A DNA stretch of 48,998 nt from assembly GCA_025454895.1 (NCBI GenBank), contig JALONO010000013.1:1-48998 (forward strand), read 5' to 3'. Under the pieces are notes generated by a model. That model was not told the origin of the DNA and made no database searches. It saw only the letters and a list, made by a program, of their open reading frames with translations. The stretch is from Bernardetiaceae bacterium (lineage in GTDB: Bacteria > Bacteroidota > Bacteroidia > Cytophagales > Thermoflexibacteraceae). Below are positions 223-48,998 of the stretch, piece after piece. Numbering within the stretch: position 1 is the first letter of the stretch; every line of letters begins with the position of its first letter. A program made the translations under genes and the position numbers.

Positions 223-849
223 TTACTCCCGCCCAAACTTGCGCGTAGCCGGGTCGTAGTAAAACCGTTTGTACTGGCCCTCGTTCCGCTCAAACTGTTC
301 CATGTCGAACCGGGCCGTGTCGCTGGCCAGCGAGTCAAAGGGCATTTCGCTGGTGAACGTGAGGCGGGAGCCTCGCCAGCCCAGCAGTTCCACGCCGCCG
401 GGGTAGGGGTTGAGGTCATGCGCGTTCCGGTAGTCGTAGCGGCGGGTGGCCAGCAGGCTATCCACGCTGAACACCTCGAGCCAGGGGTGGCCTTCGCCCG
501 CACAGGCCAAGGCTCCGTAGCGGCCATCGGGCGAGAACTGGATCTGGTAGGCATTTTGGGGGAAGTCCGGGTTGGTGAGCGAACTGCCCAGCAATTCGCG
601 GTAGCCGCTGCTGTCGGCCAGTATCCACACCGAGTGGCGCAGGCCATTGGCCAGGGTATCGGCCATGAGCAGCACGCAGAGGCGACAAGGTTGGGGAACC
701 TGACCGTGCAGCGAGTAGCTCACGCGCACGCAGGGCAGCGTATCGTAAAGCCCGGTGGGCGCGGCGGCGGTTTGCCCCGGCCCGGCCCCGGGCTGGCAGG
801 CGGCGGCCAATAGTACTGTCACTAGGCAAAAAAGGAGGTATATTTTCAT
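223..849 (-). CDS. Putative lipoprotein, 208 aa, unknown function
   Basis: The product starts with a lipoprotein signal (MKIYLLFCLVTVLLAAAC, lipid Cys at residue 18), so it should be exported and lipidated. The ATG at 849 is preferred over an upstream in-frame TTG at 858 because it gives a compact signal peptide. The mature part has an 'FSPDGRYGAL' segment, like the blades of TolB or WD40-like propellers, but at this length it could hold only part of a propeller. The C-terminal half is charged and aromatic. It is divergent from the outer-membrane barrel gene starting at 989. I do not recognise a specific family. Confidence 0.7.
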   Translation of the reverse strand: MKIYLLFCLVTVLLAAACQPGAGPGQTAAAPTGLYDTLPCVRVSYSLHGQVPQPCRLCVLLMADTLANGLRHSVWILADSSGYRELLGSSLTNPDFPQNAYQIQFSPDGRYGALACAGEGHPWLEVFSVDSLLATRRYDYRNAHDLNPYPGGVELLGWRGSRLTFTSEMPFDSLASDTARFDMEQFERNEGQYKRFYYDPATRKFGRE

Positions 850-988
850 GATGCGCAAGGCTTGGCCTGCTATTTACAAAAAAAAGTTAAGGGTGTTAAG
901 GTTTGTCAATCCCAGAGCCGGAGCGGGCCTTTTTGGCTTAACATTGTTGTACAGTCAACTGGCGACTTTGTGTACCGCTACCCCGGCC

Positions 989-2437
989 ATGAAAATGAAA
1001 TTTGTTTTACAGTACCTACACCAGTGGCTGGCCCCCGCAAGTTGGTTAGTGGTGGGGGCTGTGTTAGGGTGGGCCTGCCCGGCCCAGGCCCAAACCGAGC
1101 CTCCCCGAGCCGAGCCGGACAGTTTCTACATCCGCGACGTACATTTGGATTGCAACCACCGCACGGTGGACCGCATCATCTTACGCGAAATGGCCCACCG
1201 GCCCGGCCAACGCATCGCCCGCGCGGGCATTGGCGAAGAACTCAAGCGCGAGGCCAGCAAAATCATGAACACCAACTTGTTTGTGGTGGCGGAGGTGTTT
1301 CATGTGGTGGTGCAGGCTGATACCATTGACCTGGCCGTAAACGTGGTGGAAAAGTGGTACACCTTCCCCGTACCTATTTTGGACTTGGGCGACCGCAACT
1401 TTAACGAATGGTGGCAGCAGCGGGGCCGCGACTTGGACCGGCTGGTGTACGGTATCCGGTTTGTGCAGCAAAACGTGCGCGGCCGCAACGAAGACCTGCG
1501 GTTTACCGTGCAACTGGGCTTTACCCGTCGGCTGGAACTGGAGTACAACATCCCCTACATCGACCGGCGGCAAACCACTGGCCTCAACGTGCGGGTGTTT
1601 TATGATAACGGCAAAAATGTGCCTTACCGCACCCAACGCGACTCGCTGGTGTTTTTGCGAAGCGATCTGGTGTTGCGCGAACGGTTCTCGGCCGAAGTGG
1701 GGCTATTTAAGCGCAGCCAGTTTTACAACACCCACTTTTTTGACCTGCGCCGCCAGCACCAGTGGGTAAAGGACACCATCGCGGAACTCAACCCCGATTA
1801 TTTTGGCGCCGGGCGCACCCAGCTCCAGTTTTTTGAGCTGGCCTACACCTTCAACCGCGACATCCGCGACTTGGCCGCTTATCCGCTAAAAGGGATGCTA
1901 TTTAGGTTTACGGCCACCCAGCGGGGCCTGGGGCCGTTCGATGACCTCAATCTGTTTAATTTACAGGGCCTTTACGCCCGTTTTTTCTATTTGGGCAGCC
2001 GGTTTTACTATTCGGGCAGTGCCCGGGCCTATATTTCGTTCCCCGACCGCCAGCCGTTTACCGAGATGCGCACTTTTGGCTACCAGGGGCAATTCCCGCG
2101 CGGGTACGATCGGTTCGTGATCGACGGCCAGCGGTGGGGCGTGGTCAAAAACACGCTGCGTTGGCAAGTGCTCAACCAAACGCTTTACAACCGGCTCACT
2201 AAGTTGGAGCAGTTTCGCACGGTGCCGGTAGCACTCTACCTCAAGGGCTATGCCGACGCGGGTTATGTGCGCAACCCCATTGCCAGCCCCGAAAACCGCT
2301 TGTCGAACCGGTTGCTGGCGGGCTACGGCCTGGGGGCCGACCTGGTGGTGTACAACACCTCGGTATTCCGGTTCGAGTATTCGTTCAATATCGAGGGCGG
2401 CCGGGGTTTCTTTTTTAACCTGCAAAGCGATTTTTGA
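989..2437 (+). CDS. BamA/TamA-family outer membrane protein
   Basis: This 482-residue protein has a signal peptide ending near 'CPAQAQ', a POTRA-like domain (about residues 45-130, beginning 'FYIRDVHLDCNHRTVDRIILRE' in style) and a C-terminal beta-barrel with alternating aromatic strands that ends in Phe, as Omp85 proteins do. A Gly-Arg-Gly-Phe segment lies near the end. The start at 989 was chosen because it begins the signal peptide; the frame is open further upstream but without a plausible leader. The length is short for BamA (which has five POTRA domains), so it is more likely a one-POTRA accessory Omp85 protein than BamA itself. Such proteins insert or translocate proteins at the outer membrane; the substrate is unknown. 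Confidence 0.8.
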   Translation: MKMKFVLQYLHQWLAPASWLVVGAVLGWACPAQAQTEPPRAEPDSFYIRDVHLDCNHRTVDRIILREMAHRPGQRIARAGIGEELKREASKIMNTNLFVVAEVFHVVVQADTIDLAVNVVEKWYTFPVPILDLGDRNFNEWWQQRGRDLDRLVYGIRFVQQNVRGRNEDLRFTVQLGFTRRLELEYNIPYIDRRQTTGLNVRVFYDNGKNVPYRTQRDSLVFLRSDLVLRERFSAEVGLFKRSQFYNTHFFDLRRQHQWVKDTIAELNPDYFGAGRTQLQFFELAYTFNRDIRDLAAYPLKGMLFRFTATQRGLGPFDDLNLFNLQGLYARFFYLGSRFYYSGSARAYISFPDRQPFTEMRTFGYQGQFPRGYDRFVIDGQRWGVVKNTLRWQVLNQTLYNRLTKLEQFRTVPVALYLKGYADAGYVRNPIASPENRLSNRLLAGYGLGADLVVYNTSVFRFEYSFNIEGGRGFFFNLQSDF

Positions 2438-2567
2438 TGACGGCCCGGCCGCTTTTCTTGGCCTTTTTGGCCCCAACACTCCCATCGTTTACTTGGCCAA
2501 GCAACCAACCCGCCTACTCTCCCGTATGGGTTTGTCAGGATACCCCTTCTACTTTACTTTTAGGTAT

Positions 2568-3227
2568 ATGCAGGTTTGGCGCAAGCGTAAATTTTACCTC
2601 CGGTTGATTACTGGATTGCTCGTTTTAGGGGCCTTGGGGGCCGGGTTTAGCTATTGGTACGTGGGCCACGTGGCCCGCCCGTGGCTGTACTCGAGCGTGG
2701 AGACCGTGCCCCACCACGCGGTGGGCCTGGTGCTAGGGACCGCCCAGCGGCTCGAGGGCGGCCATGCCAACCCATATTTTACGTACCGCATCAAAGCGGC
2801 CGCGGCCCTGTTCCATGCGGGCAAGGTGCGCTGTTTGGTGGTCAGTGGCGACAACCGCACCCACCATTACAACGAGCCAGCCGCCATGCGGGCCGCGCTC
2901 CAGGCGGCGGGCGTTCCCGATACTTGCATCGTCGAGGACTTTGCGGGCCTGCGCACACTCGACTCGGTGGTGCGCTGCCAACTTATTTTTGGCCAAAACC
3001 AGTTTGTCGTCATTTCGCAGCCGTTTCATAACCAACGGGCGGTGTTCATTGCCCGGCAGCGAGGGTTGCAAGCGGTGGGTTTCAACGCCCCCGACGTGTC
3101 GTTGCAACTGGGGCTGAAAGTCCAGGTGCGCGAAGTAGCCGCCCGCCTCAAGGCATTTTTAGACGTATTTGTGCTGCACACCCAGCCCAAACATCTGGGC
3201 GACCCCATCCGCCTGCCTTTGAGCTAG
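2568..3227 (+). CDS. SanA/YdcF-like DUF218 protein
   Basis: The 219-aa product has one N-terminal membrane anchor (about residues 9-30) followed by a DUF218 domain. Family signatures are visible in order: 'GLVLGTAQR', 'NPYFTYRIKAAA', 'LVVSGDN', 'NEPAAMRAAL', 'TLDSVVR' and 'VISQPFHNQRA'. This pattern matches the SanA subgroup (vancomycin-sensitivity protein of enterobacteria), thought to act at the cell envelope, with no proven enzymatic reaction. ATG 2568 is preferred because homologues start with a few basic residues before the anchor; ATG 2526 is an in-frame alternative. It follows the outer-membrane gene by about 130 bp. Confidence 0.85.
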   Translation: MQVWRKRKFYLRLITGLLVLGALGAGFSYWYVGHVARPWLYSSVETVPHHAVGLVLGTAQRLEGGHANPYFTYRIKAAAALFHAGKVRCLVVSGDNRTHHYNEPAAMRAALQAAGVPDTCIVEDFAGLRTLDSVVRCQLIFGQNQFVVISQPFHNQRAVFIARQRGLQAVGFNAPDVSLQLGLKVQVREVAARLKAFLDVFVLHTQPKHLGDPIRLPLS

Positions 3228-3256
3228 CCCGCCGCGCAAATGTGCGCGCCAACGGT

Positions 3257-3264
3257 TACTTTTG
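3257..3264 (+). promoter_or_regulatory. Bacteroidota -7 box (TACTTTTG) for tsaE
   Basis: The sequence matches TAnnTTTG, the -7 element used by the primary sigma factor of Bacteroidota. It lies 27 bp before the tsaE GTG start. No clear -33 TTG is seen at the usual spacing, so the promoter is plausible rather than certain. Confidence 0.5.
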
Positions 3265-3291
3265 CCGCCAACCGCCCCTGTTGGCTAGCTC

Positions 3292-3714
3292 GTGGAACTC
3301 ATTTGCGAAAACTTGGCCCAACTGCCCGCCATTGCCCGCCAGGTGCGGAACTTTGCCGGGCCGCTGCGTGTATGGTTGATGGAAGGGCAGCTGGGAGCTG
3401 GTAAAACCGCCCTGGCTCAGGCCGTGTGCCGCGACCTGGGCGTAACCGACCCGGTGAGCAGCCCTACCTTTGCCATTGTGAACCAGTACGCGACCGCGCA
3501 GGGCCAGCCGGTTTACCACCTTGACTGTTACCGGTTAAAAAACGAGGCCGAAGCCCTAGACATCGGCGTAGAAGAGTACCTTTACAGCGGCCATTATTGC
3601 CTTATCGAATGGGCCAGCCGCATCCAAGCCTTGTGGCCCCCGGCTTACCTGGCCATTGACATTGCGCTCGGCCCCGGCCAAGAGCGGCGCCTAAACCTGA
3701 CCCGGCATGACTGA
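3292..3714 (+). CDS. tsaE: tRNA threonylcarbamoyladenosine biosynthesis ATPase TsaE
   Basis: TsaE is the ATPase that helps TsaB-TsaD install N6-threonylcarbamoyl on A37 of ANN-decoding tRNAs in the cytoplasm. The 140-aa length is typical. The Walker A motif 'GQLGAGKT' is at residues 32-39, followed by the family blocks 'VSSPTFAIVNQY' and 'HLDCYRL', and by 'LIEWASR' near the end. The start is a GTG that immediately gives the expected N-terminus. The last 8 bp overlap the ald gene, so the two are very likely co-transcribed and translationally coupled; the same pairing is common in Bacteroidota. Confidence 0.95.
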   Translation: MELICENLAQLPAIARQVRNFAGPLRVWLMEGQLGAGKTALAQAVCRDLGVTDPVSSPTFAIVNQYATAQGQPVYHLDCYRLKNEAEALDIGVEEYLYSGHYCLIEWASRIQALWPPAYLAIDIALGPGQERRLNLTRHD

Positions 3715-4933
3715 CCACCTAAAATCGGAAATCCGCAAACTGGCCCAAGGCAGCCAGCTTTATCCGCAAGAGATGCTGGTGAAAGTGCGCGAAGGCCAAC
3801 AAATCTTGCACATTGGCTTGCCCAAAGAGGCAGGCACTTACGAGAACCGGATCACCCTCCGGCCCGAGTCGGTGTCGGTGCTGGCGGCCAATGGCCACCA
3901 GATCACCCTCGAGGCAGGCGCAGGCCTGCGCAGCAACTACCCGGACCGTGAGTACAGCGAGGCTGGGGCCAAAATCGTGTATTCGTCCGAAGAGGTGTAC
4001 CAGGCCGACGTGATCCTGAAAATTGACCCGCCCCTGCCTGCCGAAATCGAGCTGATGAAGCCGCGCACTACCATCATCTCGGCCTTGCAATTTGCCAAGG
4101 TGGACAGCGAGTATTTCTGTGCCCTCAACCGCAAGCGCATTACCGCCCTGGGCTACGAAATGCTGGAAGACGACATCGGCGGCTTGCCCCTGGTGCGGGC
4201 CATGAGTGAAATTGCCGGGAGTGCGGCCGTGCTCATCGCGGCCGAGTATCTGAGCAACACCAACGGCGGCAAAGGCATTATTTTAGGCGGCATTACGGGG
4301 GTGCCGCCCACCAAAGTGCTCATTTTGGGCGCGGGCACGGTGGCCGAGTACGCCGCCCGCACCGCCATTGGCCTGGGCGCGGCCGTAAAGGTGTTCGACG
4401 ACAACCTGTACAAGCTCCGCCGCCTCAAACACGCCCTGGGCGACCCCCAACTGTACACCTCCACCATCGATGCCACCACCCTGGCCCGGGCCTTAAAAAC
4501 CACCAATGTGGCCATCGGGGCCTTGCGTAACGACCTCGGTATCTGCGTAGTAACCGAAGAAATGGTGCAGCAGATGCGCCCCGGCTCGGTCATTATCGAC
4601 GTGAGCATCGATAACGGCGGTTGTTTCGAGACCTCGCAAATGACCACCCACGACCACCCGGTGTACACCCGCCACGAGGTCATCCATTATTGCGTGCCGA
4701 ACATCGCCTCGCGGGTAGCCCGCACGGCCACTAAAGCCATCAGCAACATCTTTACCCCCATTTTGCTCAAAATTGCTGACCTAGGCGGGGTGGACGAGAT
4801 GATTTTTGCCCACGAGGGCTTTGCCCGGGGCGTTTACTGCTACCAGGGCGATCTCACCCACGAGCACATTGGCAAACGCTATGGACTGAAACACAAAGAG
4901 TTACGATTACTTATTGCCGCTACCAAACACTAG
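3707..4933 (+). CDS. ald: Alanine dehydrogenase
   Basis: The product (408 aa) belongs to the alanine dehydrogenase / transhydrogenase alpha-subunit family, which interconverts L-alanine and pyruvate plus ammonia with NAD. Visible signatures are 'GLPKEAGTYENRITLRP' at the N-terminus, the substrate-site region around 'LKIDPP', and the Rossmann glycine motif 'LILGAGTVAEYAA' at about residues 206-218. It carries a longer N-terminus (~30 residues) than the Bacillus enzyme, as other Bacteroidota members do. The gene starts inside the last codons of tsaE. Confidence 0.93.
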   Translation: MTDHLKSEIRKLAQGSQLYPQEMLVKVREGQQILHIGLPKEAGTYENRITLRPESVSVLAANGHQITLEAGAGLRSNYPDREYSEAGAKIVYSSEEVYQADVILKIDPPLPAEIELMKPRTTIISALQFAKVDSEYFCALNRKRITALGYEMLEDDIGGLPLVRAMSEIAGSAAVLIAAEYLSNTNGGKGIILGGITGVPPTKVLILGAGTVAEYAARTAIGLGAAVKVFDDNLYKLRRLKHALGDPQLYTSTIDATTLARALKTTNVAIGALRNDLGICVVTEEMVQQMRPGSVIIDVSIDNGGCFETSQMTTHDHPVYTRHEVIHYCVPNIASRVARTATKAISNIFTPILLKIADLGGVDEMIFAHEGFARGVYCYQGDLTHEHIGKRYGLKHKELRLLIAATKH

Positions 4934-6340: not shown

Positions 6341-6760
6341 TTATTCGCCCACCACGGCATAACTGTGGGTGATGGTGGCCGTTTTGCTGAGCATGGCGGT
6401 TACGGAGCAGTATTTTTCCAACGAGAGCCTGATGGCCCGCTCGGCTTGTTCGGACTGCAACTGGCCCCAAAACTCGTAATGGATGTGGATAGCGGTAAAC
6501 ACCGCCGGGATTTGGCCTTCGGCCCGCTGGCCGGTGAGGGTGAGCCGTAGGTTGCGCAGCCCGGCCCGTTGTTTTTGCAAGATGCTGATCACGTCAATTT
6601 CGGTGCAGGCACCCAGGGCGGCCAGCACGGCTTGCATGGGCCGCATGGCCAGGTCGCGCCCCCCGATGTCGGCACTGGCATCAAAGCGGTGGGCGTGGCC
6701 CGTTTCGGTGCGGGCTTCCAGGTGGTAGGCGTCGTCCAGCCGGTCGATTACGATTTGCAT
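6341..6760 (-). CDS. OsmC family protein
   Basis: The 139-aa product has the OsmC fold signature: the first redox cysteine is C52 in 'ALGACTEIDV' and the second is C118 in 'EKYCSVTAML'. OsmC and Ohr proteins reduce organic or lipid hydroperoxides using these two cysteines; the YhfA-like branch, which this most resembles, has a poorly defined physiological role. The ATG at 6760 gives the usual short N-terminal strand. It is separated from metZ by about 200 bp and has its own promoter-like box upstream. Confidence 0.88.
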   Translation of the reverse strand: MQIVIDRLDDAYHLEARTETGHAHRFDASADIGGRDLAMRPMQAVLAALGACTEIDVISILQKQRAGLRNLRLTLTGQRAEGQIPAVFTAIHIHYEFWGQLQSEQAERAIRLSLEKYCSVTAMLSKTATITHSYAVVGE

Positions 6761-6840
6761 ACGGCAATTAATGATTAAGGGATGGGCTTATCGGGTGGTT
6801 AATCTTGATAAAATTGGCAACCCAAATGAGTAACAACGGC

Positions 6841-6848
6841 CAAAGGTA
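6841..6848 (-). promoter_or_regulatory. -7 box (TACCTTTG) upstream of the osmC-like gene
   Basis: On the minus strand this is a full match to TAnnTTTG, about 80 bp before the start codon. No -33 TTG is seen at 19-21 bp. The remaining 200 bp towards 7052 hold no further gene that I can see. Confidence 0.4.
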
Positions 6849-7052
6849 GTGCGCCTGCTGGTTGATGGCTAGGGGCGGCGGCGGCGAAAGGGAAAAAGGA
6901 GGTTTGTCTCATTGGCGGTCAGGTGCTTTTATTTTGATTTACAGTAAGTTACAATGACACCACGTCCGCTCCAGCGTTTGGCTTCGCAAACCCGTCAGTC
7001 CAAGTAGCAATGAATCAAGGTATTTTCGTAAAACATTGATTTTCTCGGGCAA

Positions 7053-8882
7053 TCACCTCACCACCACCAACCGCCCCTGGCCCCGGAAATGAGGAGTGGC
7101 CAGGCTCCACAGGTAAGTGCCGGGGGGCAGCGAGGTTACGTTTAGCTCGTACTCGTGCGGCCCGGCGGGTAGCGTCGCTTCTACCAGGGGGGCCAAGGGC
7201 CGTCCGGTAAGGTCGTGGAGGGCGAGTTGCACGGGGCCGGGGCTGGCCAAGTTAAACGGCAACCGGGCGGTAGTTTGGGCAGGGTTGGGGTAAGCGGGCC
7301 GCAAACTAGCCAGCGGGCTGGCCTGCGGGCTGGCCGTTACCAGCAGGCTGGCCGGGTTACTGGCCGGGCTTTCGTTGTGTAACCGGTCCAGGGCCGTAAT
7401 CACATAAGTGTAGCGCACATCGGCCAGGTTGGTGGTCAGGTCTAGGAAGGCGGTGGTATCGGTGGGGGTTACCGCCCGGATGAACCGGGCCTGGGCCAAG
7501 TCGGGGGCCTGGTTGTTCTCGAAGCGATAAATGACGAACTGGCGCACCCGGTCCAGCGGCCCGGCCGGGGCGGTCGGGCGGTCCCAGCGCAGTTGCACGC
7601 CCTGGCGGGTGAGGCTGGCCACCAGGCCCGTGGGCGCGGGCGGGGGCGTGGCATCGCGCCAGGGCACCAAGGGCAGCAGGGCGGGGTGGCGGTAAAAGTC
7701 TTGTCGGAGGCTGTCTTGGATGGCCAGCAGGTTGCCCGTTACCGAGCGGGAGCTGAAGAAAATGCTGCCGTTCACCTCGGCCGTGGTGCGGTTGAGGCGC
7801 AGTTGGTTGGGCATTTGGCTGGGGTTGAGCCAATTGGGGTCGCTGGTGGTGTTGATCCGGTACGCCCCTTGGCCAATGTACAAATGGCGGCCAAAGCTGT
7901 TTTGGGCCCACCAGGGCACCAGCACTTCGTAGCGGGCGGCCGTAAACCCAATGCTCCAATATAGTTGCGGGGCCAGGTAATCCACCCAACCTTGCTGGGC
8001 CCACTTGCGCGAGTCGGCAAAAATTTCGGAGAAGCTCTGGAGGCCCCGGGTATCGGAGCCGAGCGGGGTGGCGGTGCCCCGGTTCTGCCAAATGCCGAAC
8101 GGGGAGATGCCAAACTTGACCCAGGGTTTAGCCGCCCGCAGGCTATCGGCCACGGCGCGCACCAGCAGGTCCACGTTGTCGCGCCGCCAGTCGGCCCGGT
8201 TGGTGAAGCCCCGCGCGTGGACCCGGAACGTGGAGTCGTCGTTGAACACCTGGCCGGTTTCCGGGTAGGGATAAAAGTAGTCGTCGAAGTGGATCGCGTC
8301 CACGTCGTAGCGGCGGGCCACGTCCATGATCACGCGCACCACGTGGGCGCGCACCTCGGGCAGGCCGGGGTCCAGGTAGCGGGCGTTGCCGTAGGGGCGC
8401 AGCCAACTGGGCTGGGTGTTGGCCAGGTGGTTGGGGGCCAGCCGGGCGTTGCGCGCATCCGAAACGGCCCGGTAAGGGTTGAACCAGGCATGGAACTCCA
8501 GCCCCCGGCGGCGGGCCTCGGCAATCATAAAGGCCAGGGGGTCATAACCGGGGGCTTGGCCCTGCTGGCCGGTGAGCACGCTGCTCCACGGTTCTAACTG
8601 GCTGGGGTAGAGGGCATCGCAGGCGGCGCGCACCTGCACCACCACCGCGTTGAGGCCGCTGCGCTGGTGCTGGTCCAGCAGGGCCACAAACTCGGCCCGT
8701 TGCTGCTCGGCGGCCAGGGTGTTGCGGCTGGGCCAGTCGATGTTGCTCACCGTGGCCACCCACACGCCCCTGAACTCGCGCTTGGGCGGGGCCGAAAGTT
8801 GGGCCAAGGCCGGGTCATTAATTAGTGGGAGCAAACTGCCCAAGGCCCACCAAAACAAACGAGATAAAAGCCGGGGTTTCAT
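7053..8882 (-). CDS. Secreted GHL10-type glycoside hydrolase with FN3-like and T9SS sorting domains
   Basis: The product (609 aa) has a signal peptide and then a large GHL10 (DUF187, GH10-like) TIM-barrel domain, about residues 35-370. It is recognised by 'REFRGVWVATVSNIDWPS' at its start, 'FHAWFNPYR', 'IHFDDYFYPYP' and 'PQLYWS'. After it come a fibronectin-III-like stretch (about 415-520) and a C-terminal region beginning 'AYPNPAQTTARL' and ending in a beta-rich 'GTYLWSL...GQGRLVVVR', typical of type IX secretion sorting domains. It is therefore probably exported by T9SS and acts outside the cell on a polysaccharide or peptidoglycan-related glycan; the substrate is unknown. ATG 8882 begins the signal peptide. 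Confidence 0.88.
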   Translation of the reverse strand: MKPRLLSRLFWWALGSLLPLINDPALAQLSAPPKREFRGVWVATVSNIDWPSRNTLAAEQQRAEFVALLDQHQRSGLNAVVVQVRAACDALYPSQLEPWSSVLTGQQGQAPGYDPLAFMIAEARRRGLEFHAWFNPYRAVSDARNARLAPNHLANTQPSWLRPYGNARYLDPGLPEVRAHVVRVIMDVARRYDVDAIHFDDYFYPYPETGQVFNDDSTFRVHARGFTNRADWRRDNVDLLVRAVADSLRAAKPWVKFGISPFGIWQNRGTATPLGSDTRGLQSFSEIFADSRKWAQQGWVDYLAPQLYWSIGFTAARYEVLVPWWAQNSFGRHLYIGQGAYRINTTSDPNWLNPSQMPNQLRLNRTTAEVNGSIFFSSRSVTGNLLAIQDSLRQDFYRHPALLPLVPWRDATPPPAPTGLVASLTRQGVQLRWDRPTAPAGPLDRVRQFVIYRFENNQAPDLAQARFIRAVTPTDTTAFLDLTTNLADVRYTYVITALDRLHNESPASNPASLLVTASPQASPLASLRPAYPNPAQTTARLPFNLASPGPVQLALHDLTGRPLAPLVEATLPAGPHEYELNVTSLPPGTYLWSLATPHFRGQGRLVVVR

Positions 8883-16399: not shown

Positions 16400-16591
16400 T
16401 AGAGTTTTTGCATATTGAAAATCAGATATTGACTTAAATTGGCCTCTTGTTCACCACCTCCTACGCGCTTCAAAATTGCGTCCCGGCCCACAAGGCTCGC
16501 CCCAAAAGCTCATTCGCTTTTGGCCGTCCGACGGTGAGGGGCTTCCTCTGAATTCAGTTAAGATGCTCATTATCATCACACAAAAACTCTA
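16400..16591. mobile_element. MITE-like element, copy A
   Basis: Terminal inverted repeats TAGAGTTTTTG (16400-16410; reverse complement 16581-16591) bound 192 bp without coding capacity. The centre (about 16476-16535) holds a hairpin around CCAAAAGC...GCTTTTGG that is also present, inverted, in copy B at 21154-21320; both copies share ATTGCGTCCC beside it. No target duplication is clear. Confidence 0.5.
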
Positions 16592-16610
16592 TTGAGCGAA
16601 AATCACAAAT

Positions 16611-46937: not shown

Positions 46938-48811
46938 ATGCCTGAAAACGAACGCGGCACCCAACACTTTAAGCCCAAAGAAAATCCCCCGCCCGTGGGG
47001 AAAAATTATTTGTTGGCGATTGGGATAGACCAGTACGCTGACCAAGGAATACGCAACCTTCGCAATGCCGTAAGCGACGTGAAGGCCGTAGTCGGGTTGC
47101 TGGCCGAGCGATACTATTTTTCCCCGCCTAACAACGATCAGGAAACCGTATTACTGCTTGACCAAGCGGCCACCCGGGCCAAAATCATCGGCCAACTGAA
47201 GGCATTTGGCAACAAAGTGAAAGAGCCGGATAGTTTGGTCATTTATTTTGCGGGGCACGGCGAAATGGACGGACCGAGGGGCTACTGGATTCCGCACGAC
47301 GGGCTGGCCAAGGATACGCCTGATGGCGAGCACAGTTGGGTCATCAACTCCGATTTAACCTCTTATCTGGGCGATTGCACGGCCCGCCACATTTTCTTTC
47401 TGGTGGATTCGTGCTTTCCGGCCACCTTGCTGCGCGAGAGCCGGGACACCGGAACTAAAAACGCTCAGCTTCTATATTCCCGGCCCTCGCGGATGGCCCT
47501 GGTTTCCGGGGGATTAGAGCCGGTTTCTGACGGGGTGCGGGGTGGTCATAGTCCTTTTGCTACCTGTTTGCTCAACTTTTTGGGCAGCCACGACGGCCCT
47601 TACTTGCGAGCCGCCGAGCTGTGTTTAAAAGTAGAGGAAGAAATACCCAAGTACATTCCGGGGCAGCACCCCAGCCACGGTAACGTAAACGATCTTTTAG
47701 CCTCCTACATGGGCAAGCCTAAGGGCGAATTTGTCTTTTTTACCCGCCCCAAGCCGCCTGCCCCAAACCCCGCCGAGGCCGCCTGGCAGGCCGCCCTGGC
47801 CGCTTACGACGATTTTTTGGAGCAACACCCCGATAGCCCTCACGCCGAGGAAGCTGAAACCCGGATACGCGCCCTGGAAGAGGCCCTGGCAAAGACACAG
47901 TTAGATGAACTGACCCTATTTATCCAGACCCAAGACAGTCATTCCCTATCCGATGTCCGCGACTATTTGAAAACGTACCCACAGGGCCAGTATATAAAAG
48001 AAGTCCAAGCCCTTCGCGAGCGATTGAGGAACCAACTACCTTCCACCAGCTCCCTAGCCAACGAGAACCCGCCACCTGCCGAATCACCTGTAAATCCAGC
48101 CCTACAAGTAACCAAGCATGTTCCTCATGTCAACTTCACCGAAACTGTCAGTGGTGTGAGTTTTAACATGATATACGTAGAGAGTGGCGAGTTTATGATG
48201 GGCGACACCTTTGGCGAGGGTAATAGAGATGAACTGCCCGTCCACCCCGTTATTCTGGACGGCTGCTACTTGGGCGAGACGGTGGTAACCCAGAGCCTGT
48301 ACCGGGCCGTGACGGGCCGGAACCCCAGCTACTTCAAGCTCGGCGACGAACACCCTGTCGAGCAGGTGAGCTGGGATGACGCCCAGGACTTTATTCAAAA
48401 GCTGAACCAGTACACGGGCAAAAAATACACCTTGCCCACCGAGGCCCAGTGGGAGTTTGCTGCTAGGGGAGGCACCAGTAGCTTGGTACGACGCTAACTA
48501 TCAACAAAGCCGCCACGGGAGCCAGGGCACTACCCACCCCGTGGCCACCAAAAAGGCCAATGAACTGGGCTTTTACGATATGAGCGGCAACGTATGGGAG
48601 TGGTGCCAGGACTGGTACAACGCGAAATTTTACGACAACCCGGTGGCCCGGACGCGCAACCCAGTTAACTTAGAGAGAGGCTCCAACCGGGTGTACCGTG
48701 GGGGGGGGGTGGGGCAACGTCCCGCAGTTCTTGCGGGTTGCCAATCGCATCAACGATGTCCCGACTTACTGGAGCTACAACCTAGGGTTTCGCCTCGCCA
48801 GGATTGCTTAA
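46938..48811 (+). pseudogene. Caspase-FGE fusion gene with two frameshifts; DGR-target-like C-terminus
   Basis: The N-terminal ~270 residues form a caspase-like (C14) domain with H107 in 'YFAGHGE' and C159 in 'FLVDSCF'. A helical segment with tetratricopeptide-like 'FLEQHPDSPHAEEAETRI' follows, then an FGE-sulfatase (SUMF1) C-type-lectin-fold domain from 'MIYVESGEFMMGDTFGE'. The frame ends at 48497, after 'EFAARGGTSS'. It resumes in a second frame near 48472 ('VAWYDANYQQ'; ~15 expected codons missing) and shifts again in a run of ten G (48700-48709). A third frame then encodes the expected end 'WGNVPQFLRVANR...GFRLARIA' to 48811. ATG 46938 is preferred; GTG 46893 is an alternative. The lesions may be real or sequencing errors. 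Confidence 0.8.
48710..48811 (+). other. Candidate variable repeat (VR) of a diversity-generating retroelement
   Basis: In the third frame the end of the FGE domain reads W-G-N-V-P-Q-F-L-R-V-A-N-R-I-N-D-V-P-T-Y and continues W-S-Y-N-L-G-F-R. The twelve positions that are Asn in typical template repeats use GGC, AAC, GTC, TTC, ATC, AAC, GAT, GTC, TAC, AGC, TAC and AAC. All can arise from AAC or AAT by changing only A. This is the mark of adenine-specific retrohoming, but no template repeat or reverse transcriptase is inside the window. Confidence 0.5.
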
Positions 48812-48915
48812 CTTTTAGCTTTCTTACCTTTTTACCTTTTGGCCAACCTTTGGTTTTTTTACCAATAGTGTTATTGTGAATTGATAATGATTGACTTATT
48901 TGCATTCGGAGGAAG

Positions 48916-48936
48916 CCCCTCCCCGACGGGGAGGGG
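48916..48936. repeat. 9-bp GC hairpin near the right edge
   Basis: CCCCTCCCC pairs with GGGGAGGGG around a GAC loop and is followed by GTTGGGGTGGGG-type sequence. It is a widespread kind of bacterial intergenic palindrome. Its position 105 bp after the candidate VR also fits the hairpin often found downstream of DGR variable repeats. The rest of 48812-48998 has no gene. Confidence 0.6.
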
Positions 48937-48998
48937 TTGGGGTGGGGCCAAGGCGATTGGATTTAGATGTGATATTATCAATAAAAATTTCTAAGTAG

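Follow-up and report, generated by a model that had tools for sequence, protein, structure and literature searches.

Caspase-type peptidases have already been described as parts of the targets of diversity-generating retroelements (DGRs). In cyanobacteria, orthocaspase-bearing DGR proteins combine a caspase-type peptidase with a C-terminal C-type-lectin domain that carries the variable region, and targets remote from the reverse transcriptase are also on record (PMC7517822). FGE/CLec sensors with protease effectors are known from other multicellular bacteria as well (PMC10907252; PMC7159879), and the DGRs of Thiohalocapsa PB-PSB1 and other multicellular bacteria pair such sensors with the effectors of conflict systems, show incomplete loci and remote targets with MITE-like repeats nearby, and have had their diversification measured in natural populations (PMC10907252). 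TvpA of Treponema denticola is a DGR target of the FGE-type C-type-lectin fold without a caspase domain.

The locus described here lies at the right-hand end of the window, by which is meant the whole stretch of DNA that was analysed, one entire contig (C119) of 48,998 bases in an assembly of 389 contigs that is 95.55% complete. Its last gene codes for a protein in which a caspase domain, a linker, and an FGE (C-type-lectin) domain are joined, and the 3' end of this gene is, with high confidence on the strength of sequence comparison, the variable region of a DGR target. As caspase-bearing targets have been published before, the locus adds another member to a known class. It shares with the cyanobacterial proteins the fusion of a caspase-type peptidase to a C-terminal lectin domain, but belongs to another phylum, the Bacteroidota, as its GldK/PorK-like FGE paralogues and its relatives indicate, and reverse transcriptase and template were not found in its assembly. 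With the Thiohalocapsa-type systems it shares the putative FGE sensor, the incomplete locus and a dispersed repeat nearby; the targets there carry STAND, MoxR/vWA or CHAT/TIR parts, whereas here caspase, linker and FGE domain are fused directly. No description of such a system was found for the lineage.

Architecture of the locus

Pfam assigned residues 25-236 of the window protein to the caspase domain PF00656 (E 8e-10) and residues 410-515 to the FGE domain PF03781 (E 3.3e-17). When aligned with its relatives, the protein retains the motifs of the catalytic His (YFAGHGE) and Cys (LVDSCF), and this aligned GHG/DSC pair, together with PF00656, identifies it as a caspase-like (C14) peptidase with a His-Cys dyad. 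Its closest solved structure is the T. denticola DGR variable protein 2y3c, and its C-terminal end (...GFRLA) aligns with the target of a complete DGR in a related genome. The gene starts near 46938, and the contig ends at 48998, shortly 3' of the variable region (Table 1). The end of the contig is probably due to the dispersed repeat at that place, which has about 50 related matches in the genome. The hairpin inside this repeat is GC-rich, and one related match lies at 16528-16594 of the window on the minus strand; the hairpin was rejected as a DGR cruciform because it belongs to the dispersed repeat.

Table 1. Coordinates of the features of the caspase-FGE locus in the window, and of the complete DGR in the related genome G006.
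Feature	Position	Strand	Basis or remark
Caspase domain (Peptidase_C14), linker and first half of the FGE/C-type-lectin domain	46938..48497	+	Pfam PF00656, PF03781; the open reading frame ends at the frame-break stop
First frame break, 43 bases of the C388 copy missing	48476..48477	+	alignment with C388
Middle of the FGE domain, second frame (VAWYDANYQQS...NVWEWCQDWY...)	48478..48705	+	comparison of reading frames
Very probable DGR variable region; third frame from 48710, coding end reaching a stop at 48811	48679..48792	+	gapless alignments with the G006:C59 template and with C388
Second frame break, run of ten G with one base over	48701..48710	+	comparison with C388
Dispersed intergenic repeat, including the hairpin CCCCTCCCCGACGGGGAGGGG at 48916-48936	48857..48960	+	about 50 related matches in the genome
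Complete caspase-FGE DGR, L077 (G006:C59)	387-4120, about 4 kb		five parts: target, HRDC, bAvd, reverse transcriptase, template

Two breaks interrupt the gene in this assembly and separate the variable repeat from the frame of the FGE domain: the caspase domain and the first half of the FGE domain share one frame, the middle of the FGE domain is read in a second, and the variable repeat in a third. Compared with a second copy on contig C388 of the same genome, the window copy has 43 bases fewer at about 48476/48477 and one extra base in the G run, and the C388 copy carries an in-frame TGA. A full-length protein could not be made from the window copy as assembled, and the defects of the two copies point either to decay or to assembly error within a hypervariable stretch.

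A matching template in a complete DGR of the same family

Genome G006, which belongs to the same family, holds on contig C59 a complete DGR made up of a caspase-FGE target, an HRDC protein, a bAvd (PF22296, E 6.2e-17), a DGR-type reverse transcriptase (RVT_1, E 1.6e-24) and, downstream of the gene for this enzyme, a template repeat. Among solved structures the enzyme is matched best by 8ub7, listed as 'Reverse transcriptase', which we take to be the Bordetella phage DGR enzyme. The template and the variable region of this system differ at 16 of 92 columns, and all 16 mismatches fall on template adenines. From 48710 on, the template of the relative (WNNNPQNLRVANRNNNNPTNRNNNIGFRL) aligns without gaps to the window (WGNVPQFLRVANRINDVPTYWSYNLGFRL), and its AAC/AAT codons, 13 in number, meet NNY codons in every case in both own copies, i.e. 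those of the window and of C388. The variable positions are thereby fixed externally, by the template of a relative and not by an own template.

This alignment places the assignment on firmer ground than the argument by which it was first proposed. A sequence-only reading of the window had named twelve codons as those usually diversified in DGR targets, and had stressed that all of them can be reached from AAC or AAT by changes of adenines only. The twelve codons are present at the positions given, in the frame that starts with TGG at 48710, but the condition says no more than that the third base is C or T. This holds for 48-57% of the codons in the genes checked and for 23 of the 34 in the stretch 48710-48811, and 96% of the 34-codon windows in the neighbouring gene contain at least twelve such codons. 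Because C/T-ending codons are this common and the positions were picked by hand, the codon argument is weak, and the pattern amounts to little more than chance. The accompanying contrast in Val codons, GTC at the variable positions against a predominance of GTG elsewhere, proved uninformative: GTC is rare in the three neighbouring genes (0, 0, and 1), yet inside the caspase gene it occurs 10 times against 9 for GTG. Counted over all Val codons, GTC accounts for 10 of 32 in the gene at 46938-48470 and for 1 of 85 across the three neighbours, a deviating codon usage that may reflect a different origin of the gene. The stretch 48710-48811 itself was rightly taken for DGR variable sequence; the variable region, however, begins near 48679, and in the assembly it does not share the frame of the FGE domain.

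Adenine-directed differences between the two own copies

The second copy on C388 allowed the variation in the region to be compared with the template of the relative. Over 113 columns from 48679, with the G run omitted, the window copy and the C388 copy differ at 20 positions, and 17 of these are adenines in the G006:C59 template; with 38 adenine columns among the 113, the hypergeometric p is 2.6e-7, a value that assumes independent columns and uses the template of a relative and thus serves as a guide, not as an exact probability. At codon positions 1 and 2 the share is 17 of 18 (p = 1.5e-6). The 202 bases upstream of the variable region also hold 20 differences, distributed 6/5/9 over the three codon positions and without the adenine pattern, and from 48781 on the two copies are identical over 68 bases. 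Three differences do not follow the adenine rule: TGG/TGA, TGG/AGG, and the third base of GAT/CGC. Of these, TGG/AGG would do so if the own template has AGG. The differences between the own copies thus lie mostly where the relative's template has adenine, in the 3' terminal part of a target gene, as in a DGR. The central expectation of the sequence-only reading, a DGR variable region at the end of the caspase-FGE gene, was borne out by these comparisons.

The search for the DGR machinery

The same reading had predicted a template repeat and a reverse transcriptase just to the right, and had suggested looking for an Avd gene there too. The contig stops at 48998, and in the 95.55%-complete assembly none of the three was found: there was no PF00078/RVT_1 match and none with the G006:C59 enzyme as query, no bAvd, and no template, whether the variable region or the inferred template served as query. 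With an assembly that is incomplete, these negative results do not establish a loss of the machinery. With the reverse transcriptase not found in such an assembly, the locus is filed as a DGR target and not as a complete DGR; its variable region lies at the C-terminus of the FGE domain, as in C-type-lectin targets, and in-frame continuity is lacking as assembled.

Several candidates elsewhere in the genome were set aside. An S23/PF05635 match on contig C141, considered as an Avd, scores under the curated cut-off, is frame-broken, and lies beside ABC-transporter genes with no template there. The HRDC matches of the genome are inside frames of 755-759 aa, taken to be RecQ-type helicases. The other FGE proteins of the genome, among them GldK/PorK-like paralogues, were considered as extra targets, and by eye none has a DGR-type end. 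Beyond the genome, the exact pattern of the variable region had no match in viral contigs, the G006:C59 reverse transcriptase gave a single distant match in viral contigs, and a search with the window protein across genome contigs returned distant homologues only.

One locus or two, live or orphaned

The relation between the two copies bears on where the machinery might be. The first 100 bases of C388 are identical to the window and the last 64 bases of C119 are identical to C388, with 89% identity between, and no third contig with the downstream stretch at comparable identity turned up. This fits two versions of one population locus, in which C388 continues rightwards; it fits as well two paralogous loci whose short contigs were lost in binning. 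If C388 is the true continuation, the 13.4 kb that it adds past the end of the window contain no reverse transcriptase, and the DGR would act in trans, as has been discussed for other DGRs (PMC10907252; PMC7517822). The combined proposal that C119 and C388 are one locus, and that the caspase-coupled sensor is diversifying now through a reverse transcriptase elsewhere in the genome, appears unlikely.

The broader reading, that the system is live and the assembly incomplete, stands at about an even chance. A short or unbinned contig would then carry the reverse transcriptase and template, and the frame breaks would be assembly artefacts in a population-variable stretch beside a dispersed repeat. 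The fragmentation into 389 contigs and the repeat-bounded end of C119 agree with this, as does the position of both copies at contig ends, with perfect ends of 100 and 64 bases around a less similar middle, as in an assembly bubble; the fragmented genomes G001, G002, and G125 likewise have DGR-type FGE ends in assemblies without a reverse transcriptase. Against it stand the joint absence of reverse transcriptase, bAvd, and template, and the disabling changes in the window and C388 copies alike.

These same observations lend substance to a second reading, a real possibility although we give it somewhat less than an even chance, by which the locus is an orphaned and decaying target: the reverse transcriptase cassette would have been lost, the gene would be turning into a pseudogene, and the adenine-directed variation would be a fossil. 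The machinery missing from the assembly, the loss of 43 bases and gain of one G in the window copy, and the TGA in C388 are what decay would leave behind. On the minus strand of C388, at 6741-7115 (L014, G000:C388), a caspase-type linker fragment lies downstream of the second FGE copy; it is apparently gene debris, and such debris of a further caspase linker also suits an orphan. A caspase frame that is open across 519 codons with catalytic His and Cys retained is harder to reconcile with decay, and the breaks are confined to where the assembly is least reliable. Finally, an ordinary FGE C-terminus that was never hypermutated and shows the codon pattern by chance is very improbable, for although NNY codons are common in the genome and FGE domains are widespread, with other FGE proteins of the same genome lacking a DGR-type end, the differences between the copies are concentrated at template adenines and a matching template exists in G006:C59.

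Proposed function and related systems

If the system works as its published counterparts do, the reverse transcriptase, together with bAvd, would copy the template RNA and misread its adenines, and the resulting cDNA would take the place of the 3' end of the target. This would re-randomise the exposed surface with which the C-type-lectin (FGE) domain binds its ligand and leave the caspase part constant. Because a caspase is coupled to a variable FGE domain, the most likely role, by analogy with published systems, is that of a variable sensor driving a caspase-type protease effector. A reverse transcriptase may still act on this repeat in this organism.

Relatives hold further DGRs with FGE targets that have other N-terminal parts, namely L078 (G006:C77), L079 (G041:C5), and L080 (G099:C245). 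In 60-base windows their templates and variable regions differ at 13, 10, and 14 positions, respectively, all of them template adenines, and in each an HRDC-like gene precedes that of the reverse transcriptase. DGR-type FGE C-termini also occur at L082 (G001:C6), L083 (G002:C224), and L028 (G125:C389), in assemblies that show no reverse transcriptase; the last of these has a caspase-linker-FGE architecture resembling that of the window.

The locus extends to a further lineage the direct fusion of a caspase-type effector with a self-diversifying binding domain, and the DGR of G006 offers a compact, complete system for testing whether, as proposed, a variable sensor is wired to a death protease.
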